Positions 2,987 to 25,769 of a stretch of DNA of 32,432 nt are shown here, one piece after another. Under the pieces are notes generated by a model, which was not told where the DNA came from, made no database searches, and saw only the letters and a list, made by a program, of their open reading frames with translations. The stretch lies in assembly GCA_029213165.1 (NCBI GenBank), contig JARGNO010000002.1:1-32432 (forward strand), in the 5' to 3' direction. The stretch comes from Minwuia sp. (GTDB lineage Bacteria; Pseudomonadota; Alphaproteobacteria; Minwuiales; Minwuiaceae). The stretch's first letter is position 1; every line of letters begins with the position of its first letter. Made by a program: the position numbers and the translations under genes.

Positions 2987-3015
2987 AGTCTAGCCCTTTA
3001 CCGGGATCGCGTGCA

Positions 3016-3576
3016 TCACCCTGCGGAAACCTCTGCGGCTTCCGCCTCGTCCCCGTCATTGTCGTCGATCTCGATCTCGATGGCGCGGCGCTCCATCCCG
3101 CCAGGCGCGCCTGTATCCTTGAACCGACGGCACGGACCGACGTAGTTGTCCTGATCGACAAAGGGCCGCGGATGGTTGGCGACCCATGACAGGCGGTCGT
3201 AGAGCCCGCCAGGAGAGAGCGGCAAGGTCAGCACCATGTTGGCACCAGCATCGCGCGAACTGGTCACCGCACCGATGGTGGTGTGACCCAGGGTCATCAG
3301 GATCGGGATATGCCGCGCCGGGTTCCGCCGGTTCTCCCGAACGCTGCGGACCAGGTCGACGCCACCCTTGCCGTCAATGTTGTAATTGACGATCAGCAGA
3401 TCCACGGTCCCGCGCTGGATCAGTTTGCTCGCCTGCTCGACATTGCGCGCATGCACTACCGGATCGGCACCAAAGGATTTCAGGATCGACTGCGTGATTC
3501 GGAAAGCCGGCTCCCCCGAATCCGCGACAAGAACGGAGATGTTCTTGAGATTGATATCCTTGGCCGGACCCTTCAT
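3016..3576 (-). CDS. Degenerate CheY-like receiver protein (no phosphoacceptor Asp)
   Basis: This 186-residue protein is a stand-alone receiver domain (about residues 13-135) followed by an R-P-F-V-D ... Y-V-G-P-C-R-R tail and an acidic C-terminus. It is a clear paralogue of the product encoded at 4121-4702; both share the order I-N-L, Q-S-I-L, F-G-A, N-P/H-P-A-R, D/S-G-A-N and the GPCRR tail. The phosphoacceptor position is Asn64 (L-L-I-V-N-Y-N) and the conserved Lys is replaced by Leu (V-L-T-L-P), so normal phosphorylation is not expected. It may act as a phosphorylation-independent partner or decoy. It is the third gene of a leftward trio, 39 bases after the Hpt-like gene, with AGGA upstream of the ATG. 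Confidence 0.82.
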   Translation of the reverse strand: MKGPAKDINLKNISVLVADSGEPAFRITQSILKSFGADPVVHARNVEQASKLIQRGTVDLLIVNYNIDGKGGVDLVRSVRENRRNPARHIPILMTLGHTTIGAVTSSRDAGANMVLTLPLSPGGLYDRLSWVANHPRPFVDQDNYVGPCRRFKDTGAPGGMERRAIEIEIDDNDGDEAEAAEVSAG

Positions 3577-3615
3577 CAGGATGGCTTCCTTAAGTTGTCT
3601 CGCGTTGGCTGTACG

Positions 3616-4119
3616 TCAGCCGATATTGCCGGTTGGTTCGGGGTAGTGATCCACCAGTTGTCCCAGGGCATTCATCAATGATGCCAACTCGCCTTCGCCC
3701 TCACGCTTGAAGGTCGGCGTACTGACCAGCCGCAGCGCATTCAGATGCGTCCGCATCGCATGCGGATCATTGCGCTTCGCCTCGGTAAGGCGATGAATCA
3801 ATTCGCAGAAACTGTCAGCCACATGCGTTACCGCCTCATAGTCGAAAGTGGCACCAAGGTTGCGGATCTGATTCGACAGGCCATAGGCTTCCTCCCCATA
3901 TGGATTCGGGAAAGTATCGTCCTGACCGGCCTTGTCTACTGCTGACCAGAGTTCGCGCAGCAATCCGTCCACCCATTCAAGGTATTCGGGTTCCAGTTCG
4001 GTGACGGCGGACTGACCCGCCTCGATTGCGTCTTCCCTGGAGATGCTTGGCTTCTGGCGTGCGATCTGCGTGAACCGTGTGGGCACAATTCGCGCCTCAT
4101 TTGTTTTCTTGTTCGGCAT
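3616..4119 (-). CDS. Hpt-like helical protein lacking the expected histidine
   Basis: The 167-residue product is predicted mostly helical and soluble. Residues about 80-132 resemble the Hpt-like proteins that accompany small receivers in alphaproteobacteria, whose core (as I remember it) reads A-H-D-I-K-G-x-G-x-x-F-x-Y, followed later by H-x-x-A-L-R. Here the aligned stretch is S-N-Q-I-R-N-L-G-A-T-F-D-Y, so the phospho-accepting His is replaced by Asn83, while HLNALR is kept. It starts 1 base after the stop of the upstream receiver gene, so translation is probably coupled. The family assignment is by pattern memory and is uncertain; a plain hypothetical protein is the conservative alternative. 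Confidence 0.6.
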   Translation of the reverse strand: MPNKKTNEARIVPTRFTQIARQKPSISREDAIEAGQSAVTELEPEYLEWVDGLLRELWSAVDKAGQDDTFPNPYGEEAYGLSNQIRNLGATFDYEAVTHVADSFCELIHRLTEAKRNDPHAMRTHLNALRLVSTPTFKREGEGELASLMNALGQLVDHYPEPTGNIG

Positions 4120-4120
4120 G

Positions 4121-4702
4121 CTACTGAATTCCGGTTGACGTGATCATGGGGTTTGGAACACGGACTGCTCGGCCTCGCGTTTCCATGCCTGCTTCGGTCT
4201 TGTTTTTCATTCTGCGCTCGATCTGGTTGGGGGCGCCTGCCGCACGGAACCGGCGGCAGGGACCTGCATAGACTTCGTGGTCGACGAAGGGACGGGGTCG
4301 GTGAGCTATTGCCGCCAGACGTTCGTAGAGCGCCTGGACGGAAACTGGCTTGGTCAGCACCAGGTTGGCACCACTGTCGCGGCAGCGCCCGACATCGCGT
4401 GCTGTCAGGTGACCACAGGTGATCAGCACGGGGATATAGCGTGCCGGATGGTTGGAGGTCCGACGCAGTTCCTTCACGAAATCGGGGCCCCGACCATTGC
4501 CGAGGAAGAAATCGCAGATCAGAACGTCGATACCCCCAAACATCAGCCGGTCACGTGTAGCCTGCAAGCTGCCGGTATGGTGAATGAACACGGCGCCGAA
4601 GCCCTGCAGGATCGACTGCATGACCCTGCGACCGCCCTCGTTCTCATCCGCAACGAGAAAGTTGACCTGTGCCAGGTTGATGTGTTGCTCGGCGAGCTTC
4701 AT
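4121..4702 (-). CDS. Stand-alone CheY-like response regulator with GPxRR tail
   Basis: This 193-residue protein is a single receiver domain with an intact phosphorylation site: acidic pair Asp19-Glu20, phosphoacceptor Asp64 in L-I-C-D-F-F, Thr96 (V-L-I-T-C-G-H), and Lys119 in V-L-T-K-P. It has no DNA-binding output domain; after the receiver comes R-P-F-V-D-H-x-x-Y-A-G-P-C-R-R, a tail shared with the paralogue at 3016-3576, and a basic C-terminus. It is the first gene of a leftward trio with the Hpt-like gene (1-base gap) and the degenerate receiver. A CtrA-like box lies 48 bases upstream. The partner histidine kinase is not in the window. A role in motility or cell-cycle signalling is inference only. 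Confidence 0.87.
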   Translation of the reverse strand: MKLAEQHINLAQVNFLVADENEGGRRVMQSILQGFGAVFIHHTGSLQATRDRLMFGGIDVLICDFFLGNGRGPDFVKELRRTSNHPARYIPVLITCGHLTARDVGRCRDSGANLVLTKPVSVQALYERLAAIAHRPRPFVDHEVYAGPCRRFRAAGAPNQIERRMKNKTEAGMETRGRAVRVPNPMITSTGIQ

Positions 4703-4749
4703 GGCCCCTGCTTCTCAATTGAACAGGGTCACACTCTATGCGCGCCGGG

Positions 4750-11454: not shown

Positions 11455-11472
11455 TATTTTTTCCCTCCGATT

Positions 11473-11487
11473 TGGCACCGGCCTTGC
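11473..11487 (+). promoter_or_regulatory. Sigma-54 promoter of the fliK-flgD-flgE group
   Basis: TGGCAC-N5-TTGC matches the sigma-54 consensus at every conserved base, with the required GG-N10-GC spacing (GG 11474-11475, GC 11486-11487). Transcription would begin near 11499, 27 bases before the fliK start codon at 11526, and this excludes the longer in-frame start at 11472. The activator is probably FlbD, encoded at 20345-21742. Confidence 0.8.
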
Positions 11488-11525
11488 GAAGTCCGGTCCG
11501 TACCAAAGTCAGGATCGGGAACATT

Positions 11526-12989
11526 ATGCAGCCGAACGTATTTTCCTCCGCCCCCAGCAGCAGCCCGGCAATTGCGCTGAAGGCCAGCAAGCAGATGGGC
11601 CCCGCATACAACGACAGTCGCCGCGCGGACAGCGCCGACAAGCCGCCCAAGTCCGAGTTCGCGAAGATGGTCGTCAACAAGGACAAGCCGGTCGAAACCA
11701 GGGCACCTGAGAAGGACACCGATACGCAGGCCGTGAAGTCCGGGAAAGTCGACGGGACGGCGAGCGCCGAAACCGATGAAGCCGCCAAGACTGCCGCTTC
11801 TGCAGATCACGCTGGGGCCGCTCAGATTGTGGAAGAAGAAGCCACGACCGGCGATACGGAGACCACAGCCAACACGGAAGCTGCTGCCGAAGTCGCAGTC
11901 ATTGCTGATCAGGTAGAGACCGTCGCCGCAAGCGGGTCACCGGTCGCGGCAGCCGCGGGCAAGGCCGATGCCGCCGCGACGGTTGCCGCTGCTGCGGTCG
12001 ACGCCGCATCTGCGGACGGGGAAGAGCAGGCTACGGCGACAGGGGCCGACAAATCCGCAGCGACCGGTGCGAACGCACAGTCGGTCAATGCCGGGTCGGA
12101 AGCGAGCGCAGCAACGCCGGTGCCAGGCGCCGACAGCGCGCAAGCGGGAGCGGGAGCGGGAGCGGCGACTGGGTCCGCCACCGAAGCCGCAACTGCAACA
12201 CCGGCCCCGCTGAAGGATCCCGCCCAGGAAACATTGGCCAGTGCAAAGGCCGGATCGTCCGAAGCCGCGACTGTGAAGGCTGACGAGGCCGGAGGCAGCG
12301 CGCGTGTCACTGACCGGTCAGCGGCTTCGTCCGTTGCCGCGGAGGACAGTGCACGTAGCGGCTCGGCAGAGGGTGTGGCCCGTGAGGGCGCAACGCCTGA
12401 CCTGTCCCGCGCGAACGCAACGGCCACCGCGACTGCTGCGCTCGCCACAGCCGCCCAGGGCGTCGGTGAGCAGGTGCCGCAGACGAATGTCGCACCAGTC
12501 AACGGGCCGCAGGCCGTACAGAGTTCGGCGCCTGTGCAGCAACTCGCCGCGGCAGCACCGCAGGCCCAGGTGCCTGATGCCCCTGTGCAGCAGCTTGCCG
12601 TGCATGTCACGCGTGCCGCCAAGGAAGGCGCCGACCGGATCGAGATCCAGTTGAAGCCCGCCGAACTCGGCCGGGTCGATGTGAAGCTGGAAGTCGGACA
12701 CGACGGTCGCGTTCAGGCGGTGGTGAGTGCGGAGCGTTCAGACACGCTCGACCTGCTGCGCCGTGACGTGCAGCAGCTGGAGCGCGCCCTCACCCACGCC
12801 GGTTTCAATACCGACAAGGACAGCTTCAGCTTCGCCGAGCGTGGTGGCGAGCGCGGCCAGCAGGCCGATGGTCGGGGCAACGGACAAGGTGACGGCGATC
12901 TGGCCAGCGATGACCAGGTCGCGGAATCAGCAAACGACAACCGCAGACGCATGGCCGTAGACCGGCCCGGCGTTGATGTGAAGGTCTGA
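11526..12989 (+). CDS. fliK: Flagellar hook-length control protein FliK
   Basis: FliK is exported through the flagellar type III apparatus, measures hook length and triggers the switch to filament export. This 487-residue protein has a long Ala/Thr/Glu-rich, low-complexity N-terminal and middle part, usual for the FliK ruler, and a C-terminal Flg_hook domain at about residues 353-440: R-I-E-I-Q-L-K-P-A-E-L-G-R-V-D-V-K-L, then R-D-V-Q-Q-L-E-R-A-L. The frame is open to 11472, but the sigma-54 promoter there places the transcript start near 11499, so ATG 11526 is chosen. flgD follows 11 bases after the stop, supporting a hook operon. The low-complexity part gives no homology support; the call depends on the C-terminal domain and the context. 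Confidence 0.88.
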   Translation: MQPNVFSSAPSSSPAIALKASKQMGPAYNDSRRADSADKPPKSEFAKMVVNKDKPVETRAPEKDTDTQAVKSGKVDGTASAETDEAAKTAASADHAGAAQIVEEEATTGDTETTANTEAAAEVAVIADQVETVAASGSPVAAAAGKADAAATVAAAAVDAASADGEEQATATGADKSAATGANAQSVNAGSEASAATPVPGADSAQAGAGAGAATGSATEAATATPAPLKDPAQETLASAKAGSSEAATVKADEAGGSARVTDRSAASSVAAEDSARSGSAEGVAREGATPDLSRANATATATAALATAAQGVGEQVPQTNVAPVNGPQAVQSSAPVQQLAAAAPQAQVPDAPVQQLAVHVTRAAKEGADRIEIQLKPAELGRVDVKLEVGHDGRVQAVVSAERSDTLDLLRRDVQQLERALTHAGFNTDKDSFSFAERGGERGQQADGRGNGQGDGDLASDDQVAESANDNRRRMAVDRPGVDVKV

Positions 12990-13000
12990 GGAGTAGAACG

Positions 13001-13678
13001 ATGGATCTTTCCGCCCTTGGGCTTTCCACCCTGCCAAAGGCTTCCGGCGCTGATTTCGCCGGAGCCAAGCTGGCAGATGATTTCGATACATTCCTGACCC
13101 TGCTGACGACCCAGCTGCAGAACCAGGATCCGCTGGAACCGATGAAGTCGGAACAGTTCACCGAACAGCTCGTCCAGTTCTCCAGTGTCGAGCAGCAGAT
13201 TGCCACGAACGACAACCTGGAAACCCTGACATCGCTCGGCCTGGCTGGACAGCAGGGTGCGCTGGTCAGCTTCATCGGCAAGAACATCGAAGGAGTTGGC
13301 AACCAGGCCACCCTGTCCGATGGGCTCGCGAGCTGGAAATTCGATCTGGAGGATGCAGCCGACTCGGTCTCGATCCTGATCACCAATTCCACCGGCAAGG
13401 CAGTCTTCACGACCAAGCTGAATGACGTCGATGCCGGCGCGAACAGCTTCATCTGGGACGGTCGCGACAATGCCGACAACGAACTGCCTGATGGCGACTA
13501 CCGCATCTCCATCAGCGCCACGGACGAGGACGGGACTTCCGTCGCCTCCACCGTCCGCTCCAGCGGCCTGGTGGAAGGGGTGGAGATCGTCAACGGCGTC
13601 GCTCAGCTGCGCGTCGGCGGCAACATCGTCCCCGTGAACCAGGTGACTTCCGTATCAACGGCGCCAGACCCTTCCTGA
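13001..13678 (+). CDS. flgD: Flagellar hook capping protein FlgD
   Basis: FlgD forms the temporary cap at the tip of the growing hook, guiding FlgE assembly. The 225-residue protein has the conserved FlgD N-terminal region (D-F-D-T-F-L-T-L-L-T-T-Q-L-Q-N-Q-D-P-L-E-P, residues about 27-47, then Q-L-V-Q-F-S-S-V-E-Q) and the C-terminal FlgD Ig-like/tudor part with W-D-G-R-D-N-x-x-x-x-L-P-D-G-D-Y. Length is usual. GGAG lies 7 bases before the ATG. It follows fliK by 11 bases and precedes flgE by 98 bases on the same strand. The protein is exported without a cleavable signal peptide. Confidence 0.95.
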   Translation: MDLSALGLSTLPKASGADFAGAKLADDFDTFLTLLTTQLQNQDPLEPMKSEQFTEQLVQFSSVEQQIATNDNLETLTSLGLAGQQGALVSFIGKNIEGVGNQATLSDGLASWKFDLEDAADSVSILITNSTGKAVFTTKLNDVDAGANSFIWDGRDNADNELPDGDYRISISATDEDGTSVASTVRSSGLVEGVEIVNGVAQLRVGGNIVPVNQVTSVSTAPDPS

Positions 13679-13776
13679 CGCTGTAACCGAACATGCCGAA
13701 CCGCCAGAACGCCGGTCGGCCTGAATCTCAGGGCAAAAGGCCTCCCCTACCCTCTCTCTCCCTGGAGAATTGAAAC

Positions 13777-15111
13777 ATGAGTATCATTGGTGCACTGCAG
13801 TCCGGCGTTTCAGGTCTTAACGCCCAGAGCCAGTCGATGAGCGTCATCGCCAACAACATCTCGAACGTCAGCACCGTCGGCTACAAGGCCAGCCGGACCG
13901 CGTTCTCCACCCTGGTGACCCAGACCGTCGCCGCAACGGGTTTCTCGACCGGCGGCGTGCAGGCCGAATCCCTGCAGCTCAACGATGTCCAGGGCCTGCT
14001 GCAGCAGACGTCCTCGGCCACCGACATGGCGATCAGCGGTGATGGCTTCTTTGTCGTCAACAACGAGTCGGAACCCGGTGTGGCCACCGGTCAGTTCATG
14101 TTCACCCGCGCCGGACAGTTCGTCCCGAACGAGGATGGTGACCTGGCAAATACCGCAGGCCTGTTCCTGCAGGGGTGGCCGATCGACGAGACCGGTGACA
14201 TTCCCAGCAACCGCACCGACCTGAACGTCCTGGAAACCGTCAACGTGCGTGGTCTTACGGGTTCTGCCGAAGCCACTTCGGAGATCAACCTGCGTGCCAA
14301 TCTGCAGGCAACGCAGACAGTCAACGCCAACGTCGGCGCCTATGTGGCCGGTGACATGGCAGCCGGGACCTTCACACCCGACTTCCAGACCAGTGTCCAG
14401 ATGTTCGACAGTCAGGGCGGTGTCCGGAACCTGACCTTCAGCTACCTGAAATCGTCGACGCCGAACCAGTGGTTCACCGAAGTTCATGCGGAGCCTGTCG
14501 CGGATGTCGATATCGCCACTCATCCGAACGGCCTCGTGGTATCCGGGACCACCGCCTTCAACAGCGACGGCACGATGGATCTGACCAACTCGACCGCCGC
14601 GCTGACCAGCCCGACCGTGACGTGGAACAGCAATCTCGGCATCGACGACTCGGTGCTGACCGTGAACTACGGCAGCGAAGGCCAGGCTGATGGTCTCAGC
14701 CAGTTCAACGGTACGTCCCGAATCATCTCGTCCGATGTGGACGGTGCTGTCTTCGGCGGTCTGGCCGGTGTTCAGGTTGGTGACGACGGTATCGTGACCG
14801 CCCTGTTCGACAACGGCACGCGGGAGGATATCTTCAAGCTGCCGATCGCGACCTTCCCCAATGCCAATGGGCTGGAGGCCAAGACAGGCAATGCTTTCCT
14901 GGCCACCAATGACTCAGGTGACTTCAGCCTCAACGAGGCCGGAACCGGCAGCGCCGGCGTGGTCGCGGCCTCCGCCGTCGAAGGATCGACCGTGGATCTG
15001 ACGCGGGAGTTCACCCTGATGATCGAGACCCAGCGGTCATTCTCGGCCAACGGTCGCATCATCACCACGGCAGACGAAATGTTGAACGAACTGGTCAATC
15101 TGAAGCGGTAA
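13777..15111 (+). CDS. flgE: Flagellar hook protein FlgE
   Basis: FlgE is the structural subunit of the flagellar hook, the universal joint between rod and filament. The 444-residue protein starts with the rod/hook N-terminal motif (S-G-L-N-A-Q-S, then I-A-N-N-I-S-N-V-S-T-V-G-Y-K) and ends with the matching C-terminal helix (L-M-I-E-T-Q-R-S-F-S-A-N-G-R-I-I, then E-M-L-N-E-L-V). The middle has the FlgE variable domains; F-F-V-V-N-N marks the second conserved block. GGAG lies about 8 bases before the ATG. The 98-base gap after flgD shows no clear promoter, so flgE is probably read from the sigma-54 promoter before fliK. A hairpin follows the gene. Confidence 0.95.
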   Translation: MSIIGALQSGVSGLNAQSQSMSVIANNISNVSTVGYKASRTAFSTLVTQTVAATGFSTGGVQAESLQLNDVQGLLQQTSSATDMAISGDGFFVVNNESEPGVATGQFMFTRAGQFVPNEDGDLANTAGLFLQGWPIDETGDIPSNRTDLNVLETVNVRGLTGSAEATSEINLRANLQATQTVNANVGAYVAGDMAAGTFTPDFQTSVQMFDSQGGVRNLTFSYLKSSTPNQWFTEVHAEPVADVDIATHPNGLVVSGTTAFNSDGTMDLTNSTAALTSPTVTWNSNLGIDDSVLTVNYGSEGQADGLSQFNGTSRIISSDVDGAVFGGLAGVQVGDDGIVTALFDNGTREDIFKLPIATFPNANGLEAKTGNAFLATNDSGDFSLNEAGTGSAGVVAASAVEGSTVDLTREFTLMIETQRSFSANGRIITTADEMLNELVNLKR

Positions 15112-15118
15112 GTGATTG

Positions 15119-15147
15119 AAATCGGGCGGTCACTGATCGCCCGATTT
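15119..15147 (+). terminator. Hairpin terminator after flgE
   Basis: A perfect 10-bp stem AAATCGGGCG / CGCCCGATTT, extendable by two more pairs, closes a loop of about 5 bases and starts 7 bases after the flgE stop. The 3' arm ends in TTT, followed by CC, so the U-tract is short. It probably ends the fliK-flgD-flgE transcript and separates it from sciP. Confidence 0.7.
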
Positions 15148-15221
15148 CCATTAACCAAATGATTTAGAAGAAAATTAAAAGCCGCTCCGTATCTTCGGAA
15201 CCGTTCGCAACGCCTACTCAC

Positions 15222-15521
15222 ATGGATGGACCGATGTCAGATCGATACGAAACAAGACCCAGCGTGATCGGCCCCGATGGCAGGCCGCTGACGCTGGACG
15301 ACCTGCCACCGCCGTCGACCACCCGCTGGGTGGCACGGCGCAAGGCGGAAGTCGTGATTGCCGTTCGTGGTGGTCTGCTGACGCTGGAAGACGCCTGCCG
15401 CCGTTACACATTGTCCGTGGAAGAGTTCCTTTCCTGGCAGCGTGCGGTCGAAAGGCACGGCATGGCTGGTCTTCGTGCCACCCGCCTGCAGGATTATCGC
15501 CCCATGACGATCAATACCTGA
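15222..15521 (+). CDS. sciP: DUF1153 / SciP-type CtrA inhibitor
   Basis: This 99-residue protein closely matches Caulobacter SciP as I remember it: V-I-G-P-D-G-x-P-L-T-L-x-D-L-P-P, R-W-V-x-R-R-K-A-E-V-V, A-V-R-G-G-L-L-x-L-E-D-A-C, then E-E-F-L-S-W-Q-R-x-x-E-R-H-G. SciP is a small helix-turn-helix protein that prevents CtrA-bound promoters from being transcribed and so times flagellar and cell-cycle genes. A second start, ATG 15234, is possible (GGA just upstream) and would give 95 residues. It sits alone between flgE and fliF, after a terminator. Upstream is an A/T-rich stretch with TTAACC at 15151-15156, a possible imperfect CtrA site. Confidence 0.9.
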   Translation: MDGPMSDRYETRPSVIGPDGRPLTLDDLPPPSTTRWVARRKAEVVIAVRGGLLTLEDACRRYTLSVEEFLSWQRAVERHGMAGLRATRLQDYRPMTINT

Positions 15522-15652
15522 GACCACGACACCTGCAATATCGAGACTTATGACCGACAGAAGACAGGTCAAAGGCGCGCAGAAGGCCGCCCCTCTTCGG
15601 ATACAGCCAGCCTTCACCGTATTCAGTTGATACCTTTTCCAGACCAGTGCGG

Positions 15653-15669
15653 CCCGGTGATCCACCGGG
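15653..15669. promoter_or_regulatory. Palindrome plus A-tract upstream of fliF
   Basis: CCCGGTG-ATC-CACCGGG is a perfect 7-bp inverted repeat with a 3-base centre, followed at once by seven A residues and then TTCCC. It lies in the 273-base gene-free stretch between sciP and fliF, about 38 bases before the CtrA-like box. It might be a regulator-binding site. As a terminator for sciP it would be odd, because A rather than T follows on the coding strand. Confidence 0.35.
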
Positions 15670-15706
15670 AAAAAAATTCCCCCTACCCGGCAAATACTGC
15701 CCAGCG

Positions 15707-15722
15707 TTAACCCTGCCTTTAC
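15707..15722 (+). promoter_or_regulatory. CtrA-like box upstream of fliF
   Basis: TTAA-CCCTGCC-TTTAC fits the CtrA consensus TTAA-N7-TTAAC with one mismatch and has the same two half-sites as the box at 4750-4765. It is 72 bases before the fliF start codon. In Caulobacter and relatives CtrA turns on early flagellar operons, including the MS-ring gene, so the position suits that role. Confidence 0.5.
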
Positions 15723-15794
15723 GACCTTGGCACTACCGTCCGCCTGTCAGCGAAGTTCCTCGCTGTGCCCAGACGCTGTCGACGGAGTGCCAAC

Positions 15795-17492
15795 GTGCAG
15801 GACATCTTTCGCAACCTCGGAGTGACCCGGCTGCTCATCATTGCCGGTATCACGCTCTCGGTCGTTGCCTTCTTCGTCTTCCTCGCCAGTCGTGTGGCAA
15901 AGCCGGACATGGCCCTGCTCTACAAGGATCTGGAATCGCGCGACGCCGGCAGCATCGTCGGTATCCTTGAGAGCCGCCAGATCCCGTTCGAGCTGCGCGG
16001 CGACGGCACGGAGATCTACGTGCCGCGCGACCAGGTCGCACGGATGCGCATGGCCGCCGCCGAAGAGGGCCTGCCCCTCGGCGGTTCGGTCGGCTACGAG
16101 ATCTTTGACAATACTGACTCCCTCGGCACCACCAGCTTCGTGCAGAACATCAACCTGCTGCGCGCGCTGGAGGGTGAACTGGCGCGGACCATCTCCTCCC
16201 TCGACGGGGTCGAGGCCGCGCGGGTGCATCTGGTCCTGCCGAAGCGCGAGGTCTTCGCGCGCCAGACACAGCAGCCCAGTGCCTCCATCATGCTGAAGAC
16301 GCGTGGCAACCTGGGTCGTGACCGTGTTGCCGCGGTGCAGAACCTCGCCGCCGCTGCCGTGCCAGGTCTGGAACCCGGTCGCGTGTCCGTCGTGGACAGC
16401 CGTGGCAACCTGCTTTCCCGCGCGCTGGAAGATGGCGATGACCCGCTTACCGCCCCCACGGCGCTGCAGGAACTGCGGCAGGGACATGAACGCCGCATCA
16501 AGCGCGCCGTCGAGACCCTGCTGGAACAGACCATCGGCGCAGGCCGGGTCCGGGCCGAGGTCGCGGCGGAAATCGACTACGACCGCGTGACGACCAACCG
16601 GGAGAGCTACGATCCCGACAGCCAGGTGGTCCGTTCCACGCAGATCCGCGAGGAGCGCTCCAATTCCTCCGAGGGAAATCAGCAGGACGCGGTGACCGTT
16701 GCCACCAACCTTCCGGGCCAGAATGGTGCCCTGGGCGGATCCGACAGGATCTCCACATCGGATGAATCGACCGAGGAGACTGTCAACTACGAGATCACCC
16801 GTGAGACCACGACCCAGGTGCGGGAAGCCGGCGTGCTGCGCCGCATCTCCGTCGCCGTGCTGGTCGATGGTGTCTATGAGCCCAATGCGGAAGGCGTGGC
16901 CGAATACCGGCCCCGGACCGAGGACGAGATCGAGGAACTGACCCGCCTGGTCCAGTCCGCAGTGGGCTTTGACGAGGATCGCGGCGACAGCGTCACGATC
17001 AGCAACCTTCGTTTCGCGGACATCGATACCTCGTTCGAGGCTGGCGAACCCGAGTTCGCTGTCGCCGGTTTCACCAAGTCGGAGATCATGCGGATCGCCG
17101 AGATCCTGATCCTGGGCATCATTGCCCTGCTGGTGATGCTGCTGGTCGTTCGCCCGATGCTGAACCGTGTCCTGAGCGCCGGAAACCTTGACGTCGGTTC
17201 CGACACCATCGCACTCGCTGGCGCAGGCGGAATGGGCGGCGGACAGGCCCGGATCGGTAGCGGAGGCGGATCCGACTATTCCATCGGCAGCGATGGTTCG
17301 GGTGGAATGCCCGCCCTGAGCGACAACCGCGCCTCAACCCAGTCGATGCCCGAACGGGAGTCCTCCATCGACATCAATCAGGTCGAGGGCCGGGTCAAGG
17401 AATCGTCGCTGAACAAGATCTCCGAGATCGTCAACAAGCACCCTGAAGAGGCCGTCGCGATCCTTCGCACATGGCTCTATCAGGACCGCTGA
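15795..17492 (+). CDS. fliF: Flagellar MS-ring protein FliF
   Basis: FliF forms the MS ring in the inner membrane, the base on which the rotor and export apparatus are built. The 565-residue protein has an N-terminal membrane segment (about residues 11-30), ring-building domains starting [11 protein letters not shown] and including [18 protein letters not shown], a second membrane segment near residues 430-455, and the C-terminal FliG-binding tail ([20 protein letters not shown]-x-W-L). The frame is open to GTG 15765, but GTG 15795 has GGAG 7 bases upstream and gives M-Q-D-I-F-R-N-L-G. It heads a tight operon with fliG, fliH and fliN. Confidence 0.95.
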
Positions 17493-17512
17493 GCAGGGAA
17501 CGGGACAGGACA

Positions 17513-18526
17513 ATGGCAGTTCTCGACTATCGCAACCTTTCCGGCTCGCAGAAGGCCGCGATCATGATCCTCTCGCTTTCCGACGAGAGTCTTGCACCCC
17601 TGTGGGAGATGCTGGACGACGAGGAAGTGAAGGAAATCTCGCAGACCATGGCCAACCTCGGCTCCGTCACGTCGGAAACCGTTGAACGGCTGTTTGTTGA
17701 CTTCGCCAACCAGATGTCGGCCGGTGGTTCGCTGGTCGGCAGTTTCGAGAGCGCGGAACGGCTGCTCGGCAAGTCCCTGCCCCGCGAACGCGTCGAGCAG
17801 ATCATGGAAGATATCCGCGGTCCCGCTGGTCGCACCATGTGGGACAAGCTGGGCAACGTGAACGAGACCGTGCTCGCCAACTACCTGAAGAACGAATATC
17901 CGCAGACCGTCGCCGTGGTCCTGGCCAAGATCAAGCCCGACCATGCGTCCCGCGTCCTCGCCGCACTGCCCGAAGACTTCGCGCTGGAAGTCGTGGCGCG
18001 GATGCTGCGGATGGAATCGGTGCAGAAGGAAGTGCTCGACAAGGTCGAGGAAACCCTGCGCATCGAGTTCATGAACAATCTGGCGCGCACCAACCGCCGC
18101 GACAGCCACGAGATGATGGCGGAAATCTTCAACAACCTGGACCGCCAGACGGAGAACCGCTTCGTCTCCGCGCTGGAGGAACGCAACCGTGACTCCGCCG
18201 AGCGGATCAAGGCGCTGATGTTCACGTTCGAGGATCTCTCGAAGCTGGATCCGGCGGGTGTGCAGACCCTGCTGCGGGTGGTGGACAAGGACAAGCTCGG
18301 CATGGCGCTGAAGGGCGCCTCCGACACGCTGCGTGATCTCTTCTTCTCCAACATGTCGGAACGTGCGGCAAAGATCCTGCGCGAGGACATGGAGGCCATG
18401 GGCCCGGTCCGGCTGCGCGATGTGGAAGCCGCACAGATGGAGATGGTGAATGCCGCCAAGGATCTCGCCCAGAAGGGCGACATCATGATGGCGGACAACA
18501 AGGGCGACGACGAGTTGGTGTACTGA
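17513..18526 (+). CDS. fliG: Flagellar motor switch protein FliG
   Basis: FliG links the MS ring to the C ring and takes torque from the stators. The 337-residue protein shows the three-domain layout: N-terminal FliF-binding part ([10 protein letters not shown]), middle armadillo domain with E-Y-P-Q at residues 128-131 (the EHPQ motif with Tyr for His), and a C-terminal charged torque helix (D-K-L-G-M-A-L-K-G, then [12 protein letters not shown], then G-P-V-R-L-R-D-V). The open frame extends to 17471 inside fliF; ATG 17513, with GGGA upstream and 20 bases after the fliF stop, gives the usual start M-A-V-L-D-Y. fliH begins 1 base after its stop. Confidence 0.96.
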
Positions 18527-18527
18527 C

Positions 18528-19160
18528 GTGGCTGAGAAATTCCTTTTCGATCATGATTTCGATACCGGTGGCAGCGCCCTGCGCAAGCGCCCGAAGGCGG
18601 AGGTCTATGAGGCCGCTGACCTGGAGGCCGCCCGCGCGGAAGCAATGGCCGAGGGCGAGCAGCGGGGACGCCAGCTCGCCGGGCAGGAAGTGGAGGCTGC
18701 TGCCTCCACCACACTCGGCATGATCGCCAGCGGCATCGATGAATGCCGGGTGGCCCTGACCGAGATCGAAGCACGCCAATCGAAGGAAGCGGCACGGGTC
18801 GGCATCGCCATCGGCAAGCGGCTCGCAGAGACCCTGATCACGCGCTTTCCCGAGAAGGAAATCGAGAACCTGGTGACGCGGTGCCTGAAGGAACTGCGTG
18901 ACGAACCCCGCCTGGTGGTCCGCACATCCGAAACCGTGGCCGACAGCCTGCGTGACCGGGTCGACCAGATGGCGGCTGGCGCAGGCTTTGCCGGACGGGT
19001 GGTCCTGCTGCCCGATGACACGATGGGCCCACAGGACGCACGCGTCGAATGGGCCGACGGCGGCGCAAGCCGCGACCATGCCGCAACCGAGGCTGCGATT
19101 GCCGAGGCTGTGGACCGGTTCCTTGACGAGAACGAACGCCAGAACGGCGGAATGGAGTAA
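18528..19160 (+). CDS. fliH: Flagellar assembly protein FliH
   Basis: FliH binds and regulates the export ATPase FliI and attaches it to the C ring through FliN. The 210-residue protein has a variable N-terminal part, a helical Ala/Glu-rich stretch with a G-x-x-x-G-like spacing (residues about 40-60: A-E-G-E-Q-R-G-R-Q-L-A-G), and a C-terminal domain similar to the ATPase peripheral-stalk subunit (L-V-V-R-T-S-E-x-V-A, ending in A-R-V-E-W-A-D-G-G). It starts at GTG 18528, one base after the fliG stop, which implies translational coupling. Sequence conservation of FliH is low; position between fliG and fliN supports the call strongly. fliI is not in the window. Confidence 0.85.
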   Translation: MAEKFLFDHDFDTGGSALRKRPKAEVYEAADLEAARAEAMAEGEQRGRQLAGQEVEAAASTTLGMIASGIDECRVALTEIEARQSKEAARVGIAIGKRLAETLITRFPEKEIENLVTRCLKELRDEPRLVVRTSETVADSLRDRVDQMAAGAGFAGRVVLLPDDTMGPQDARVEWADGGASRDHAATEAAIAEAVDRFLDENERQNGGME

Positions 19161-19166
19161 TTCGAG

Positions 19167-19523
19167 ATGGCTGACGAAACCAACCTCGACCTGAGTGAGA
19201 TCAAGGACGAAGCCAATACCGGCACCGCCGTTGCCACCACCAGTGGCGATGACGATGACGACGATATTTCCCGCACCGCCGGTGACCTGGAGACCGTCTT
19301 TGATATCCCGGTTCAGGTTTCTGCGGTGCTGGGCCGTTCACGGATGCAGGTCAGCCAGCTCATGCGCATCAGCAAGGGCGCGGTTGTCGAGCTGGACCGC
19401 AAGGTGGGTGAGGCCATCGACATCTACGTCAACAACCGCCTCGTCGCCCGTGGCGAGGTTGTGGTCGTCGATGACCGTCTTGGCGTGACCATGACGGAAA
19501 TCATCAAGGGCAATCGGGGCTGA
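19167..19523 (+). CDS. fliN: Flagellar motor switch protein FliN
   Basis: FliN builds the lower C ring and takes part in switching and export. The 118-residue protein has a short acidic N-terminal part with a run of six Asp (residues 28-33) and a SpoA domain from about residue 40: V-F-D-I-P-V-Q-V-S-A-V-L-G-R-S, then G-A-V-V-E-L-D-R-K-V-G-E, then V-N-N-R-L-V-A-R-G-E-V-V-V-V-D-D-R-L-G-V. This is the standard FliN signature. It follows fliH by 6 bases and is followed by the motA-like gene after 18 bases. fliM is absent here. Confidence 0.95.
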   Translation: MADETNLDLSEIKDEANTGTAVATTSGDDDDDDISRTAGDLETVFDIPVQVSAVLGRSRMQVSQLMRISKGAVVELDRKVGEAIDIYVNNRLVARGEVVVVDDRLGVTMTEIIKGNRG

Positions 19524-19541
19524 CCCGGAGGGCTGTGGCAC

Positions 19542-20324
19542 ATGTTTGCACGCTTTGACTTTGCAACGCTGATCGGTCTGGTGGCGAGCGTCCTCGTGGT
19601 GGGCAGCGTCATCTGGCTGGGGGATGGGTTCACGGCCTTTCTGAACCTGCCCTCCCTGCTGATTGTCTTCGGCGGCACGCTGGCCGTGACCCTGATCAGC
19701 TATCCGCTGGGCGATGTCCTGCGCGCATTGCCCGCGGTCATTTCGATCATGTTCCGCCGCCTGCGGGATCCTTCCGAAGCGGCAATGCTGGCGGTCAAGC
19801 TGGCGGATGAGGCCCGTCGTCACGGTCATCTGGCACTGCCCGCCCGGATGCAGCGGGAACGGAACGAGCCATTCCTGCGCAAGGCCATGCAGCTTGTCGT
19901 TGACGACATACCGACCCAGGAGATCGAGCGCATTCTCACCAATGACATGGGCTCCCAGGTCCAGCGCGAGAAGCTCAGTGCAGCTGTCCTGCACCGCGCC
20001 GGCGAGATCGCCCCTGCCATGGGCCTGATCGGTACCCTGCTGGGGCTGGTTCAGATGCTCGGCCGCCTCGACAACCCGACGGAGATCGGTCCAGCCATGG
20101 CACTCGCCCTGCTGACCACCCTCTATGGCGCGATCCTGGCCAACATGGTCCTGCATCCGCTCGCCACCAAGCTGGAGCATCACGCGGAGGAGGAGGCAAC
20201 GCTGAACCGCCTCTATGCCGCCGCTGCCCGTTCCATCAGTTGCAAGGAAAACCCGCGCCATCTCGAGGCGCTGATCAACAGCCTGCTGCCGCCGCTGAAA
20301 CGCGTCCGCTACTACGCAGCCTGA
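19542..20324 (+). CDS. motA: MotA/PomA-type stator protein
   Basis: MotA-type proteins pair with MotB to make the ion-driven stator. This 260-residue protein has the family layout: two N-terminal membrane segments (residues about 9-27 and 35-52, with S-L-L-I-V-F-G-G-T-L-A-V-T), a cytoplasmic loop (R-R-H-G-H-L-A-L-P, then R-K-A-M-Q-L-V-V-D), and two C-terminal membrane segments (A-P-A-M-G-L-I-G-T-L-L-G-L-V-Q-M-L and G-P-A-M-A-L-A-L-L-T-T-L-Y-G). It resembles the PomA/MotP/LafT branch, often sodium-linked, but the ion cannot be assigned. GGAGG lies 10 bases before the ATG. No motB is adjacent; flbD follows. Confidence 0.85.
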   Translation: MFARFDFATLIGLVASVLVVGSVIWLGDGFTAFLNLPSLLIVFGGTLAVTLISYPLGDVLRALPAVISIMFRRLRDPSEAAMLAVKLADEARRHGHLALPARMQRERNEPFLRKAMQLVVDDIPTQEIERILTNDMGSQVQREKLSAAVLHRAGEIAPAMGLIGTLLGLVQMLGRLDNPTEIGPAMALALLTTLYGAILANMVLHPLATKLEHHAEEEATLNRLYAAAARSISCKENPRHLEALINSLLPPLKRVRYYAA

Positions 20325-20344
20325 CGCTCAAAGGAGAAAACCAG

Positions 20345-21742
20345 ATGAGACTTCTGATCGTCGGTCCCCTGTCCGGACAGTTCGGTGCAGCCAGCAAGAT
20401 CGCCATCCAGAACGGTGCCAAGGTGGCACATGTGAACACGGTCAGCGACGCACTGGTGCAGCTGCGTGCCGGGCGTGGCGCGGACCTCGCCATGGTGGAC
20501 GTGAAGCTGGATATCGGTGACTTCGTCACCCAGCTGATCAGCGAACACATCAACCTGGAGGTCGTGGCCTGCGGCGTCGGCAACGACACGGATGCTGCCG
20601 TCCGCGCCATCAAGGGCGGTGCCAAGGAATATGTGCCCCTGCCCCCCGATCCGGAGCTGATCGCGGCGGTGCTGAAGGCCGTTGCCGATGACGATACCGA
20701 TCTGCTGTTCCGCGATCAGCGGATGCATGCGGTGATGAAGCTGGCGGATCAGATCGCCCCCTCCAATGCCTGCATCATGATCACGGGCGAGAGCGGCACG
20801 GGCAAGGAAGTCATGGCCCGCCACATCCATCAGAAGAGCCGTCGCAGCGACAAGGCCTTCGTGGCCGTGAACTGCGCGGCCATCCCTGACAACCTGCTCG
20901 AATCCGAACTGTTCGGCCATGAGAAGGGTGCCTTCACCGGCGCCGTGACCCGCCGCGTCGGCAAGTTCGAGGAAGCTGACGGTGGTACACTGCTGCTGGA
21001 CGAGATCAGCGAGATGGATATCCGGCTGCAGGCCAAGCTGCTGCGCGCCATCCAGGAACGCGAGATCGACCGTGTCGGCGGCTCGAAGCCGGTCAAGGTC
21101 GACATACGCGTCATCGCCACCTCGAACCGCGACCTGGCCGAGGAAGTGCGCCAGGGCAACTTCCGGGAAGACCTGCTCTATCGCCTGAACGTCGTCAATC
21201 TGGTGCTGCCCCCGCTGCGGGAACGTCTGGAAGACGTGGCGCTGCTGGCCGATCATTTCGTGCGCAAGTATGCGGAAGCCAACGCCGTCCCGCCCCGCCC
21301 GCTCTCGACTGCCGCCCTGTCGGTGCTGAAGCGTCATGGCTGGCCGGGCAATGTCCGGGAGCTGGAGAACACCATGCACCGCGCCGTGTTGCTGGCCACC
21401 GAGGACGAGATCGAGGAAATGGCCATCGTGTTGCCCGACGGCAGCCGTCCGGCCGCCGCCCATTCGCCCATTGCCGTCGCCGCAGCGACGACCGGTGGCC
21501 CTGCCGCATCCCCGGCCATGGATGATGAGGATGCGGAAGCCGCGAACCTGGTCGGTCGCACCGTCGCCGAGGTCGAGCGGCAGCTGATCCTGGAGACGCT
21601 GGACCACTGTCTGGGCAACCGGACCCACGCCGCGAACATTCTCGGCATCTCGATCCGCACGCTGCGCAACAAGCTGAAGGCCTACACGGAAGAAGGAATC
21701 TCCGTGCCGGGTCCCGGTGAGATGCGCCGCTATGCCGTCTGA
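20345..21742 (+). CDS. flbD: Sigma-54-dependent flagellar regulator FlbD
   Basis: FlbD activates sigma-54 promoters of late flagellar genes and can repress early ones. The 465-residue protein has an N-terminal receiver-like domain (Asp52 present in M-V-D-V-K-L-D, but no acidic pair near residue 8), an AAA+ domain with Walker A G-E-S-G-T-G-K-E at 148-155, the sigma-54 contact loop GAFTGA at 195-200 and Walker B at 213-220, and a C-terminal Fis-type helix-turn-helix (residues about 420-455, N-R-T-H-A-A-N-I-L-G-I-S-I-R-T-L-R-N-K). The start M-R-L-L-I-V-G with A-K-V-A-H-V-N-T-V matches Caulobacter FlbD as remembered. The open frame begins at 20240, but GGAG at 20333-20336 fixes ATG 20345. Confidence 0.93.
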   Translation: MRLLIVGPLSGQFGAASKIAIQNGAKVAHVNTVSDALVQLRAGRGADLAMVDVKLDIGDFVTQLISEHINLEVVACGVGNDTDAAVRAIKGGAKEYVPLPPDPELIAAVLKAVADDDTDLLFRDQRMHAVMKLADQIAPSNACIMITGESGTGKEVMARHIHQKSRRSDKAFVAVNCAAIPDNLLESELFGHEKGAFTGAVTRRVGKFEEADGGTLLLDEISEMDIRLQAKLLRAIQEREIDRVGGSKPVKVDIRVIATSNRDLAEEVRQGNFREDLLYRLNVVNLVLPPLRERLEDVALLADHFVRKYAEANAVPPRPLSTAALSVLKRHGWPGNVRELENTMHRAVLLATEDEIEEMAIVLPDGSRPAAAHSPIAVAAATTGGPAASPAMDDEDAEAANLVGRTVAEVERQLILETLDHCLGNRTHAANILGISIRTLRNKLKAYTEEGISVPGPGEMRRYAV

Positions 21743-21792
21743 TCGCCGAAACCTGTCCGTGACACCCCTTTCCGACATCCGAGGATCATGAA

Positions 21793-23958
21793 TTGAGCGA
21801 TCAGCTTCCGGCAGAACGCGGCAGCAACTCAGTAACGACGGGTAGCACCAGCGGCGGACCAGGCAGCCCCTTCGGCGGTCCCGAGGCGCTGGGCCTGTTG
21901 CGCCAGCTCGCCCGCCGTGGCGACATTGCGCTGGCCCTTGCTGTCGTCGCCATCCTGGTGGTCCTGATCCTGCCCATGCCGGGCTGGCTGCTCGACTTCA
22001 GCCTGGCCATCTCCATCACCTTCTCGGTTATGGTGCTGATGACCTGCCTGTTCATCCAGAAGCCGCTGGAGTTCAGTTCGTTCCCAACCGTGCTGCTGAT
22101 CGCCACGATGATCCGGCTGGCCCTGAACATGGCCTCCACCCGGCTGATCCTGTCGGAGGGACACAACGGCACCGATGCTGCCGGTCAGGTCATCGAAGCC
22201 TTTGGCAATTTCGTCATGGGCGGCAATTTCGTCATCGGCATCATCGTCTTCGCGATCCTGGTGATCGTGAACTTCGTCGTCATCACCAAGGGCTCGGGCC
22301 GCATCGCGGAAGTCGCCGCGCGTTTCACGCTGGATGCCATGCCCGGCAAGCAGATGGCGATCGATGCAGACCTGTCCGCAGGCCTGATCAACGAGGATGA
22401 GGCACGTACCCGCCGCAAGGATCTGGAGGACGAGAGCACGTTCTTCGGTGCCATGGACGGTGCGTCGAAATTCGTTCGCGGTGATGCCATCGCCGGTCTG
22501 ATGATCACTTTCATCAATGTCATCGGCGGCATCATCATCGGCGTTGCCCAGAACGACATGAGCTTCATGGAGGCGGGGCAGACCTATACCCTGCTGACCG
22601 TGGGCGACGGTCTGGTCTCGCAGATCCCGGCGCTGATTGTCTCCACGGCTGCCGGTCTGCTGGTCTCCAAGGCCGGTGTCTCCGGGTCGGCTGACAAGGC
22701 GCTGTTCCGCCAGTTCAGCGGCTATCCCGCGTCTCTCGGCATTTCGTCCTTCCTGCTTGTGGCACTTTCGCTGCTGCCGGGCATTCCGCTGGTTCCCTTC
22801 TGGATCCTGGCCGGTGCCGCCGGTTACGGGGCCTGGGTCCTGTATCGCAAGGGGCAGAGGCAGACTGTTGATGCGGAGGTCATGGAGGGTGTGGAAGGTG
22901 AGGCCTCGGCAGAACCGGTCGAACAGCCCATCGCCGAGATCCTGGCCATCGACGATCTGCGGCTGGAGATCGGTTACGGCCTGCTGAAACTGGTCGAGGG
23001 CGACACCAACGGGCCGAAGCTGACCGACCAGATCCGCGCCCTGCGCCGCCAGATCGCGACCGACATGGGTTTCGTCATGCCCAGCGTCCGCATTCTCGAC
23101 AACATGCAACTCGGTGCGAATACCTATTCCATCCGCATCAAGGAAGTCGAAGCCGGAACTGGCGACGTTCGTGCCAACAAGCTGATGGTGCTGGATCCCG
23201 CTGGTGGCGATATCGACATGCCGGGCGAGAACACCACGGAACCCGCCTTTGGCCTGCCCGCCAAATGGGTCGATGATTCACTCCGGGAAGAAGCGAGTTT
23301 CCGTGGTCTGACTGTCGTTGATGCCTCCACCGTGGTCACGACGCACCTGACCGAGGTGCTGAAGGACCACATGCCGGACCTGCTGTCCTATGCCGAGACG
23401 CGGAAGCTGCTGGACGAACTGCCGGACGCCCACCGCAAGCTGGTCGATGACCTGATCCCGAGTCAGATCAGTGTTTCCGCCGTGCAGCGCGTGCTGCAGA
23501 ACCTGCTGGCGGAACGCGTCTCCATCCGCGATCTGGCGACGGTGCTGGAAGGCATTTCCGACGCCGTCGGCTTCACCAAGAACGTCAGCCTGATCACGGA
23601 ACATGTGCGCAGCCGCCTGTCGCGCCAGATCTGCAATGCGAACCTGATGCCGGACGGTTTCCTGCCACTGGTCACCCTGTCCCCCGACTGGGAAAGCGCC
23701 TTTGCGGAAGCCCTGGTGGGTCAGGGGGAGGAGCGTCAGCTCGCCATGGCACCCAGCAAGGTGCAGGAATTCATCGGCGCCATCCGCATGACCTACGACC
23801 GGCTGGGCCAGCAGGGCCAGGATCCGGTATTGCTCACCAGCCCTGCCATCCGGCCCTTTGTCCGTTCCATCGTCGAGCGCATCCGTGGCGCGACGGTTGT
23901 AATGTCACAGAACGAGGTGCATCCGAAAGTGCGCCTGCGTCAGCTGGCACAGGTCTGA
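21793..23958 (+). CDS. flhA: Flagellar biosynthesis protein FlhA
   Basis: FlhA is the large export-gate protein of the flagellar type III system. The 721-residue protein has about eight membrane segments in its first half, the FHIPEP-family signature G-S-G-R-I-A-E-V-A-A-R-F-T-L-D-A-M-P-G-K (residues about 167-186) followed by A-I-D-A-D-L, and a large cytosolic domain that docks substrates and chaperones. Translation appears to begin at TTG 21793, with GAGGA at 21781-21785, 7 bases upstream; the nearby ATG at 21788 is out of frame and stops at once. It follows flbD by 50 bases and precedes flhF by 6. Confidence 0.96.
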   Translation: MSDQLPAERGSNSVTTGSTSGGPGSPFGGPEALGLLRQLARRGDIALALAVVAILVVLILPMPGWLLDFSLAISITFSVMVLMTCLFIQKPLEFSSFPTVLLIATMIRLALNMASTRLILSEGHNGTDAAGQVIEAFGNFVMGGNFVIGIIVFAILVIVNFVVITKGSGRIAEVAARFTLDAMPGKQMAIDADLSAGLINEDEARTRRKDLEDESTFFGAMDGASKFVRGDAIAGLMITFINVIGGIIIGVAQNDMSFMEAGQTYTLLTVGDGLVSQIPALIVSTAAGLLVSKAGVSGSADKALFRQFSGYPASLGISSFLLVALSLLPGIPLVPFWILAGAAGYGAWVLYRKGQRQTVDAEVMEGVEGEASAEPVEQPIAEILAIDDLRLEIGYGLLKLVEGDTNGPKLTDQIRALRRQIATDMGFVMPSVRILDNMQLGANTYSIRIKEVEAGTGDVRANKLMVLDPAGGDIDMPGENTTEPAFGLPAKWVDDSLREEASFRGLTVVDASTVVTTHLTEVLKDHMPDLLSYAETRKLLDELPDAHRKLVDDLIPSQISVSAVQRVLQNLLAERVSIRDLATVLEGISDAVGFTKNVSLITEHVRSRLSRQICNANLMPDGFLPLVTLSPDWESAFAEALVGQGEERQLAMAPSKVQEFIGAIRMTYDRLGQQGQDPVLLTSPAIRPFVRSIVERIRGATVVMSQNEVHPKVRLRQLAQV

Positions 23959-23964
23959 TAGGCA

Positions 23965-24960: not shown

Positions 24961-25769
24961 GCGATCAAACCATACGCTCCCGCTCCAATGACAAGGCAGC
25001 CACCCATCCGGAGGCGTTGTCGGGAAAGAAGCTGATCACTGTCGCATCCGGCAAGGGCGGCGTGGGAAAGACCTGGTTCGCCATCACGCTGTCACATGCA
25101 TTGGCGCAGGCAGGCCGCAAGGTGCTGCTGTTCGACGGTGACCTTGGACTGGCCAACATCGACATCCAGCTTGGCCTCAATCCCTCCCACGACCTCAGCG
25201 AGGCTGTGCTTGGCACGAAGCGTTTTGATCAGGTCGTGACGAAGTCGCCCGATACCGGCTTCGATATCGTTGCTGGTCGTTCGGGTTCCGCCCGCATGGT
25301 CAATATCCGCCACGATCAGATCAGTCTGCTGCGCCACGGACTGCTGGCCGCTGGTCAGGTCTACGATCACGTGGTGCTCGACCTCGGTGCCGGTGTCGAC
25401 CGCAGCATTCGTGGCCTGGCCGCCAACGCCGGGCCGACGATGGTGGTCACGACCGAAGAACCGACCGCGATCACCGATGCCTACGCGCTGATCAAGCTGT
25501 TGCACGGCGACCGGCCGGGGGGCGACTACCGCGTGGTGGTCAACATGTGCGGCGGTCGTGCAGAGGGGGAGCGCACCTTCGCCAAGCTGTCGACGGCCTG
25601 TGAGAACTTCCTGAAGGTGAAGCCTCGCCTTGCCGGGATCATCACGCGCGACCCAAATGTCAACGACACGATCCGTCGCCAGACTCCAATGCTGAAGCGT
25701 CATCCGCTCAGCCCCGCGGCGGAAGATGTTGCCCGGATCGCCCGCACCCTGATCGCCGAGAGCACCTGA
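24957..25769 (+). CDS. flhG: MinD-like ATPase FlhG (FleN type)
   Basis: FlhG limits flagellar number, acting with FlhF at the membrane. The 270-residue protein has the deviant Walker A S-G-K-G-G-V-G-K-T-W at residues 31-40, a switch I-like D-G-D-L-G-L-A-N-I-D, and a Walker B-like V-V-L-D-L-G-A-G-V-D. It resembles MinD but lacks an obvious amphipathic end; the leading 22 residues are basic and polar. Its ATG overlaps the flhF stop. It is the last flagellar gene in this part of the cluster; a short hairpin follows. Confidence 0.9.
   Translation: MSDQTIRSRSNDKAATHPEALSGKKLITVASGKGGVGKTWFAITLSHALAQAGRKVLLFDGDLGLANIDIQLGLNPSHDLSEAVLGTKRFDQVVTKSPDTGFDIVAGRSGSARMVNIRHDQISLLRHGLLAAGQVYDHVVLDLGAGVDRSIRGLAANAGPTMVVTTEEPTAITDAYALIKLLHGDRPGGDYRVVVNMCGGRAEGERTFAKLSTACENFLKVKPRLAGIITRDPNVNDTIRRQTPMLKRHPLSPAAEDVARIARTLIAEST

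Follow-up and report, generated by a model that had tools for sequence, protein, structure and literature searches.

Three open reading frames (ORFs), read leftward, lie at positions 3016–4702 of the window, that is, the whole stretch of 32,432 nucleotides analyzed here, which was taken from the 4.12-Mb genome of a marine alphaproteobacterium. Its genus, Minwuia, forms an order of its own. The ORFs encode a CheY-like receiver (R1), an Hpt-like protein, and a second CheY-like receiver (R3), and are separated by 1 base (R1/Hpt-like) and 39 bases (Hpt-like/R3). ORF starts were assigned mechanically, and negative gene gaps reflect the choice of start. As claimed in the first-pass annotation of this DNA, all three ORFs are full length (193, 167, and 186 aa). 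The features of the locus are listed below, where ARR denotes the arginine-rich tail.

4121..4702, minus strand: R1, CheY-like receiver with Cle-type ARR, 193 aa (ORF, Pfam, alignments)
within 4121..4702, minus strand: R1 residues D19, E20, D64, C96 (Thr/Ser position), K118, and alpha-4 R108 (alignment)
4211..4294, minus strand: ARR (c-di-GMP-type motif) of R1, R137 to R164, including YAGPCRR (alignment and Cle paper)
3616..4119, minus strand: pseudo-Hpt (CheA P1-like helical bundle) without phospho-His, 167 aa (alignment, profile, model)
3871..3873, minus strand: Asn83 codon, phospho-His position of the pseudo-Hpt (alignment)
3745..3747, minus strand: His125 codon of the pseudo-Hpt, second His, near-invariant in His-bearing and His-less members (alignment)
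3016..3576, minus strand: R3, CheY-like pseudo-receiver with Cle-type tail, 186 aa (ORF, Pfam, model, alignments)
within 3016..3576, minus strand: R3 residues D19, S20, N64, L96, L118, and alpha-4 R108 (alignment)
3385..3387, minus strand: Asn64 codon of R3, phospho-Asp position (alignment)
3085..3168, minus strand: ARR of R3, R137 to R164, including YVGPCRR (alignment and Cle paper)
11472..25766, plus strand: flagellar cluster, context only, with FliK-type, FlgD, hook/rod protein, FliF, FliG, and sigma-54 activator genes (Pfam)
within 11472..25766, plus strand: further members of the cluster, FlhA family and MinD/ParA-type ATPase (Pfam)

The nearest named loci are those of Minwuia thermotolerans DHS20C03 (95% on R3) and IMCC3096 (83%), whose DNA is identical to that of the same-genus genomes G001 and G002. 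The trio is followed by what we take to be a glutaminase-like gene and preceded, presumably, by branched-chain-type ABC transporter genes. It lies approximately 13.9 kb from fliG, and this distance is equal in G002 and G004; in G006, the receiver/Hpt pair is located approximately 1 Mb away from fliG. Chemotaxis genes were searched for near the trio and its Minwuia relatives and none was found; the window has the flagellar cluster instead. Promoter and terminator scans of positions 1900–5300 gave matches at about the level of shuffled sequence. FliM is encoded in the genome, with NQDEIDSLLG near its N-terminus. The sigma-54 activator of the flagellar cluster (20240–21739) has a receiver part that scored 21.3 bits against the Pfam cut-off of 30.2, and is perhaps another pseudo-receiver. 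On a further contig of the same genome (C114, locus L183, 1345–2433), two more adjoining ARR receivers with canonical GPDRR tails were identified, and a search of this 3.3-kb locus for an Hpt-family ORF found none.

Receivers R1 and R3

Both receivers exceeded the cut-off of Pfam Response_reg (PF00072; 30.2 bits), with scores of 48.1 for R1 and 41.2 for R3, and they shared 44% identity across 164 residues. At the five phosphorylation positions, the alignment gave D, E, D, C, and K for R1 and D, S, N, L, and L for R3; the canonical set (two acids, Asp, Thr/Ser, and Lys) is complete in neither. R1 had been annotated as an ordinary phosphorylatable receiver with an acidic pair, Asp64, Thr96, and Lys119. 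Asp64 and the acidic pair (D19 and E20) were confirmed, but Thr96 was a register slip and the Lys is residue 118. The Thr of R1 sits in the preceding column, at residue 95, a position that Leu, Met, Val, or Ile mostly occupies in relatives. Because residue 96 is Cys, R1 lacks one of the five usual phosphorylation residues, and its description as an ordinary phosphorylatable receiver was not supported. Position 96 in 83 distinct ARR receivers is Thr in 45 and Ser in 24 (Thr/Ser in 69/83), and Cys in 4. D64, C96, and the Lys were found in 4/4 R1 orthologues, including that of the own genome. The annotated Asn64 of R3 and its Leu in place of Lys (L118) were both borne out by the alignment and occur in 5/5 orthologues (own genome included). 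A pseudo-receiver has been defined as a receiver lacking any one of the five residues (review PMC12632262); R3 fits this definition, and R1 fits it if Cys is not counted as Thr/Ser.

Structure matching of the receivers covered the R3 model. It was predicted at high confidence to be a receiver over residues ~11–134; residues 140–186, which hold most of the ARR, had pLDDT under 50. The best solved matches in Foldseek were CheY structures, including activated CheY3 (E 1.0e-8) and CheY with the FliM N-terminus (4.3e-8).

The ARR of Cle receivers is a tandem [Y/F]xGP[D/E][R/K]R motif, preceded by a conserved Arg and followed by an Asp, and binds c-di-GMP; the alpha-4 Arg adds to this binding (PMC5677366). 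CleA and CleD function without phospho-residues and act at FliM (PMC5677366), and the action of Cle receivers at FliM was also studied by C-ring imaging (PMC7534056). Like Cle receivers, R1 and R3 have a single receiver domain, the alpha-4 Arg (R108 in both), a C-terminal ARR with a GPxRR core, and a flagellar context; phosphorylation residues, shown to be dispensable in CleA and CleD, are lost here. Their tails contain the preceding Arg, Y-x-G-P-C-R-R, and the later R-R, and the GPCRR that the first-pass annotation had recognized in both occupies residues 147–151 in each. Unlike in Cle receivers, the first motif has Cys in place of Asp/Glu (GPCRR, not GP[D/E]RR), a replacement found in 10/83 ARR receivers, the second motif is degenerate (APNQIERR and APGGMERR, reduced to ERR), and the final Asp is absent. 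The trio also differs in having a second receiver without Asp and Lys, plus an Hpt-like partner gene. The term "hpt" is absent from the main text of the Cle paper (PMC5677366).

The 83 ARR receivers were picked by their GPxRR tail, and these letters are therefore the selection rule; R137 was present in 83/83, R164 in 81/83, and the alpha-4 Arg in 81/83. In alignment A3 (21 rows, not selected by tail), R108, R137, and R164 were all found in 21/21 rows, the second acid in 5/21, Thr/Ser in 11/21, and D64 and K118 in 18/21; the three rows that lack them are those of R3. The ARR receiver family likely binds c-di-GMP. For R1 and R3, binding is only probable, and it may be weak or lost given their degenerate second motif and missing final Asp. 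At least 14 of the 83 ARR receivers (those of L033–L037, L040–L047, and L080) end in a FliM-N-like peptide such as LAQDDIDSLF, a possible mimic of the site at which FliM binds CheY; this peptide is absent from R1 and R3.

Within the genus, dN/dS was 0.08–0.19 for R1 (6 comparisons), 0.07–0.16 for the Hpt-like gene (6), and 0.07–0.15 for R3 (10), compared with a lower 0.03–0.08 (6) for the glutaminase-like neighbor used as a control, with dS partly saturated in these comparisons. Decay of the trio was set aside because dN/dS is low (0.07–0.19) and the full length and gene order are kept, in agreement with the earlier view of a maintained module.

The Hpt-like protein

The first-pass annotation had also stated that relatives of the Hpt-like protein have His at the position of Asn83. 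In a gap-free alignment, N83 indeed shared its column with the phospho-His of those relatives that have one, such as a paralogue from the own genome with "SHNVKGQGSTFGY". This paralogue adjoins what we take to be tatBC-like genes, shows 24% identity to the Hpt-like protein, and matched PF01627 (Pfam Hpt) over the cut-off. Alignment A2 (21 rows, 14 with His) was gapless around the site, and G89, G93, T98, and C105 were nearly invariant. The site can be read in six genomes of the genus, counting the own one; four have Asn, two have Gln, and none has His.

The trio's protein itself matched neither PF01627 nor, with E up to 1, any NCBIfam family; its only Pfam match (E 0.24) was at chance level. 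Its His-bearing relatives matched PF01627 at E 0.001 or better in 8/10 cases, 5/10 over the cut-off, and 14/21 rows of A2 matched at E up to 10. When the A2 profile was compared with the PDB, CheA P1 chains were found (2ld6, 3.5e-8; 1tqg, 4e-8; 1i5n, 7.6e-6); two synthetic repeat proteins outscored them and were read as helical-bundle background. The model of the Hpt-like protein (pLDDT 83.0, pTM 0.69) had CheA P1 as its best VIA match (1i5n_D, Z 14.5, rmsd 2.7 Å, 123 residues), and its Foldseek E-values were weak (best 0.045). Since helical bundles reach such Z values by chance and the Foldseek matches were weak, the assignment depends mainly on sequence similarity to His-bearing Hpts. Taking together the Hpt matches of its His-bearing relatives, the CheA P1 matches of the A2 profile, and the P1-like model, we concluded that the protein is an Hpt homologue without the phospho-His. 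It resembles CheA P1 and Hpt domains (PF01627) in its predicted P1/Hpt-type helical bundle and in its full-length homology to His-bearing stand-alone Hpts, and differs from them in having Asn83 for the phosphorylatable His and no PF01627 match of its own. The kinship supports the earlier reading of the trio as a module with a pseudo-Hpt and a pseudo-receiver.

A phospho-His at another aligned position would have argued against this reading. H125 was considered as a replacement phospho-site and set aside, since nearly all members have it, whether or not they keep the phospho-His (exceptions L035, L039, L062, and L132), and so it appears to be no stand-in for the lost His; its conservation suggests a structural role.

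A plant Hpt with Asn for the phospho-His, AHP6, inhibits cytokinin signaling (PMC6518804); it is likewise an Hpt homologue, from another kingdom and another pathway. In a census, the His was missing in 0.9% (90/10,312) of the sampled Hpt domains (PMC12632262). As Pfam is blind to the trio's pseudo-Hpt, Pfam-based counts of Hpts would miss such proteins. HmrX and HmrB of Caulobacter are putative Hpts (PMC11481889).

Spread of the family, loss of the histidine, and receiver partners

With an E cut-off of 1e-6, profile A1 of the family matched 118/385 genomes of the class. We analyzed 80 regions, which cover 85 of at least 150 matched places, taken best scores first with gaps, and one place in G003. 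In addition, 19 named loci were found via the receiver; L042, without an Hpt-like gene, was dropped. Hpt-family proteins longer than 550 aa (CheA-size) were removed before counting. In total, 107 Hpt-family ORFs were scored from the 80 regions and 19 loci, 69 with and 38 without the His. An ARR receiver was paired with 36/38 His-less ORFs and with 42/69 His-bearing ORFs (including 7 fusions), and none was nearby in the other 27/69. Receiver-found ORFs (1 with His, 17 without) were all paired with an ARR receiver (18/18), and loci found in this way cannot measure how often an Hpt stands without a receiver. Among Hpt-found ORFs, 41 of the 68 with His and 19 of the 21 without were paired. Conversely, 57 of the 58 ARR receivers in the 80 regions were located within 1 kb of an Hpt-family ORF and one elsewhere, a density ratio of ~124. 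The partnership between ARR receivers and the Hpt family is therefore real and general, with 27/69 His-bearing members lacking it.

Single proteins in which an ARR receiver is fused to a His-bearing Hpt were found at L104, L129, L130, L134, L152, L153, and L156. At L136 (4213–4764; G007, same family), a His-bearing Hpt lies downstream of an ARR receiver with Ala for Asp and Met for Lys. In one region, L119 (G224; 4252–9322), ARR receivers are accompanied by three Hpt-family genes, and two of these have Arg in place of the His.

In a tree of 115 Hpt members, built with the trait column omitted, the trio's protein fell in a set of 29 rows, 28 of which lack the His (SH-aLRT 97); on the other side, 71 have it and 15 do not. 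The missing His is thus common to an old branch, and the earlier idea that the rewiring is peculiar to the trio was not supported. The His-less set holds Minwuia, Hyphomicrobiales, Caulobacteraceae, and others, with Brevundimonas-type members deep and long-branched. Outside Minwuia, the residue at the His position in this branch is mostly Arg, Ala, Val, or Met, with single cases of Cys, Ser, Tyr, Leu, Asp, and His. The His label requires at least 10 changes on the tree, four of them forced by well-supported branches. As the tree is unrooted, the term "loss" relies on the presence of the His in Hpts and CheA at large; by this argument, the sequences indicate one old His loss plus several young ones.

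The receiver tree contained a matching set of 34 rows, 33 of them beside His-less partners (support 98). An all-Minwuia set of 11 rows (98) comprised R1 and R3 together with the lone receiver of G003 and that of G006; within it, R1 and R3 formed a group of 9 rows on a branch that was not well supported. These placements indicate a gene duplication in the Minwuia line as the origin of R3, either predating or following the divergence from G003 and G006.

The phosphorylation residues of partner receivers were compared by the type of Hpt beside them. The old-branch receivers were those of L031–L041, L043–L049, and L080–L087, where the Minwuia entries are R1 from two genomes plus the G003 and G006 receivers. 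All five residues were kept in 39/41 receivers beside His-bearing Hpts, 7/11 beside young His-less Hpts, and 1/26 of the old branch. For the second acid, the values were 40/41, 8/11, and 4/26, and for the Asp, 40/41, 8/11, and 26/26, respectively. The Lys was kept in 26/26 old-branch partner receivers and the alpha-4 Arg in all 78/78 partner receivers. Although the tree assigns L115 to the His-less branch, these counts include it on the opposite side; moving it changes the five-residue counts to 1/27 and 7/10. An independent-pairs test of His loss against receiver erosion found only two well-supported pairs and lent joint loss no support beyond the level of the branch, and the joint loss may therefore be a single event or a few. 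The Asp and Lys kept in 26/26 branch partner receivers imply that some Asp chemistry may remain, R1 included.

Chemotaxis genes, called with Pfam on 20 example proteins, are frequent near relatives from other genera. A cheA gene was present within the fetched 10–12.5 kb at 16/16 non-Minwuia named loci with an Hpt-like gene, and cheB, cheR, cheW, or MCP genes were also near in some; the CheZ-like gene of L048 scored under the Pfam cut-off. A nearby cheA was found at 17/26 loci of the His-less branch and 1/72 loci of the other side (17/27 and 1/71 with L115 moved), a contrast that is inflated because the named loci came with larger fetched regions and were receiver-found. Among eight Hpt-found branch regions (6–9 kb), cheA was near in one and any chemotaxis marker in two.

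Proposed module and its alternatives

Here, we propose that the trio forms a motility module of receivers and pseudo-Hpt that is gated by c-di-GMP and works without phosphate, R3 being a duplicate arisen in Minwuia, and assign this model a probability of roughly one half (about 0.52). It starts from what was observed, namely the residues, families, conservation, gene linkage, and fold predictions. The pairing of pseudo-Hpt and receiver is old, widespread, and often located beside chemotaxis genes, and it thus probably serves as a switch for motility in which phosphate transfer has ceased. In the model, c-di-GMP would bind the ARR tail and the alpha-4 Arg of R1 and R3, and this binding, rather than Asp phosphorylation, would alter the alpha4-beta5-alpha5 face that touches partners such as the FliM N-terminus. 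The pseudo-Hpt, a putative CheA-P1/Hpt-like bundle with its His lost, would dock the receivers and hold or position them with no phosphate passed. R3 would be a duplicate from Minwuia in which the remaining phospho-site is gone. FliM or another CheY target would be the output, and the c-di-GMP level would set how the receivers are split between the pseudo-Hpt and the flagellar switch and so tune motility.

The first-pass annotation had suggested phosphorylation as the gate. R1 would then be phosphorylated by CheA or another kinase and exchange the pseudo-Hpt for another partner, with R3 as a constitutive competitor. D64 and the Lys in 4/4 R1 orthologues and 26/26 branch partner receivers, together with cheA near in relatives, are consistent with this, but R1 has Cys at the Thr/Ser position, only 4/26 branch receivers have the second acid, and CleA and CleD do not need phosphorylation (PMC5677366). 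The GPCRR tail, as a variant of the Cle-type c-di-GMP-binding motif, also does not support phosphorylation as the likely gate, and we consider this reading unlikely. It is similarly improbable that the Hpt-like protein acts as a decoy; by filling the kinase or receiver surfaces that CheA P1 or a true Hpt would use, it would damp some other phosphorelay, for example that of the His-bearing paralogue in the same genome. AHP6 inhibits its pathway as an Hpt with Asn for His (PMC6518804), the fold is P1-like, and such a paralogue exists; however, identity to this paralogue is low (24%), and R1 and R3 are themselves poor phospho-acceptors by sequence.

The His position of an Hpt faces the receiver Asp in Hpt–receiver complexes, and an amide there could make the Hpt-like protein a CheZ/CheX-like phosphatase toward phosphorylated R1. 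The amides seen in the genus (Asn in four genomes, Gln in two) would fit such a role, as would the Asn of L112, L125, and L142, three His-less members that fall elsewhere in the tree than the branch. Other members of the branch carry mainly Arg, Ala, Val, or Met at this position, so that this is no branch-wide mechanism, and we regard it as very unlikely. Least probable, with hardly any weight, is that the three proteins are drifting relics of a former phosphorelay with no present role: active-site losses are found in all of them, but dN/dS is 0.07–0.19 among four to five genomes, and full length and gene order are kept.

Returning to the c-di-GMP-gated module, Cle receivers, pseudo-receivers, and pseudo-Hpts are each already known. 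An Hpt-family partner of Cle-type receivers, or its His-less form, is not named in the titles and abstract openings of a literature set mostly without subscription journals and bioRxiv preprints. Tentatively, at somewhat below even odds, we suggest that alphaproteobacteria have an undescribed, widespread unit consisting of a c-di-GMP-binding CheY-like receiver and a dedicated stand-alone Hpt, with fusion of the two in some cases. Both partners may have given up phosphotransfer together in one old lineage, which is often linked to chemotaxis clusters, and become a second-messenger-gated binding pair, in which the pseudo-Hpt would be the receiver's dedicated anti-motor or adaptor protein. This raises the question of whether the pseudo-Hpt keeps the c-di-GMP receiver off the flagellar motor or delivers it there. 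The linkage indicates a genetic partner for Cle-type c-di-GMP receivers, and the family offers a case in which an Hpt and its receivers would have lost phosphate chemistry yet stayed linked.
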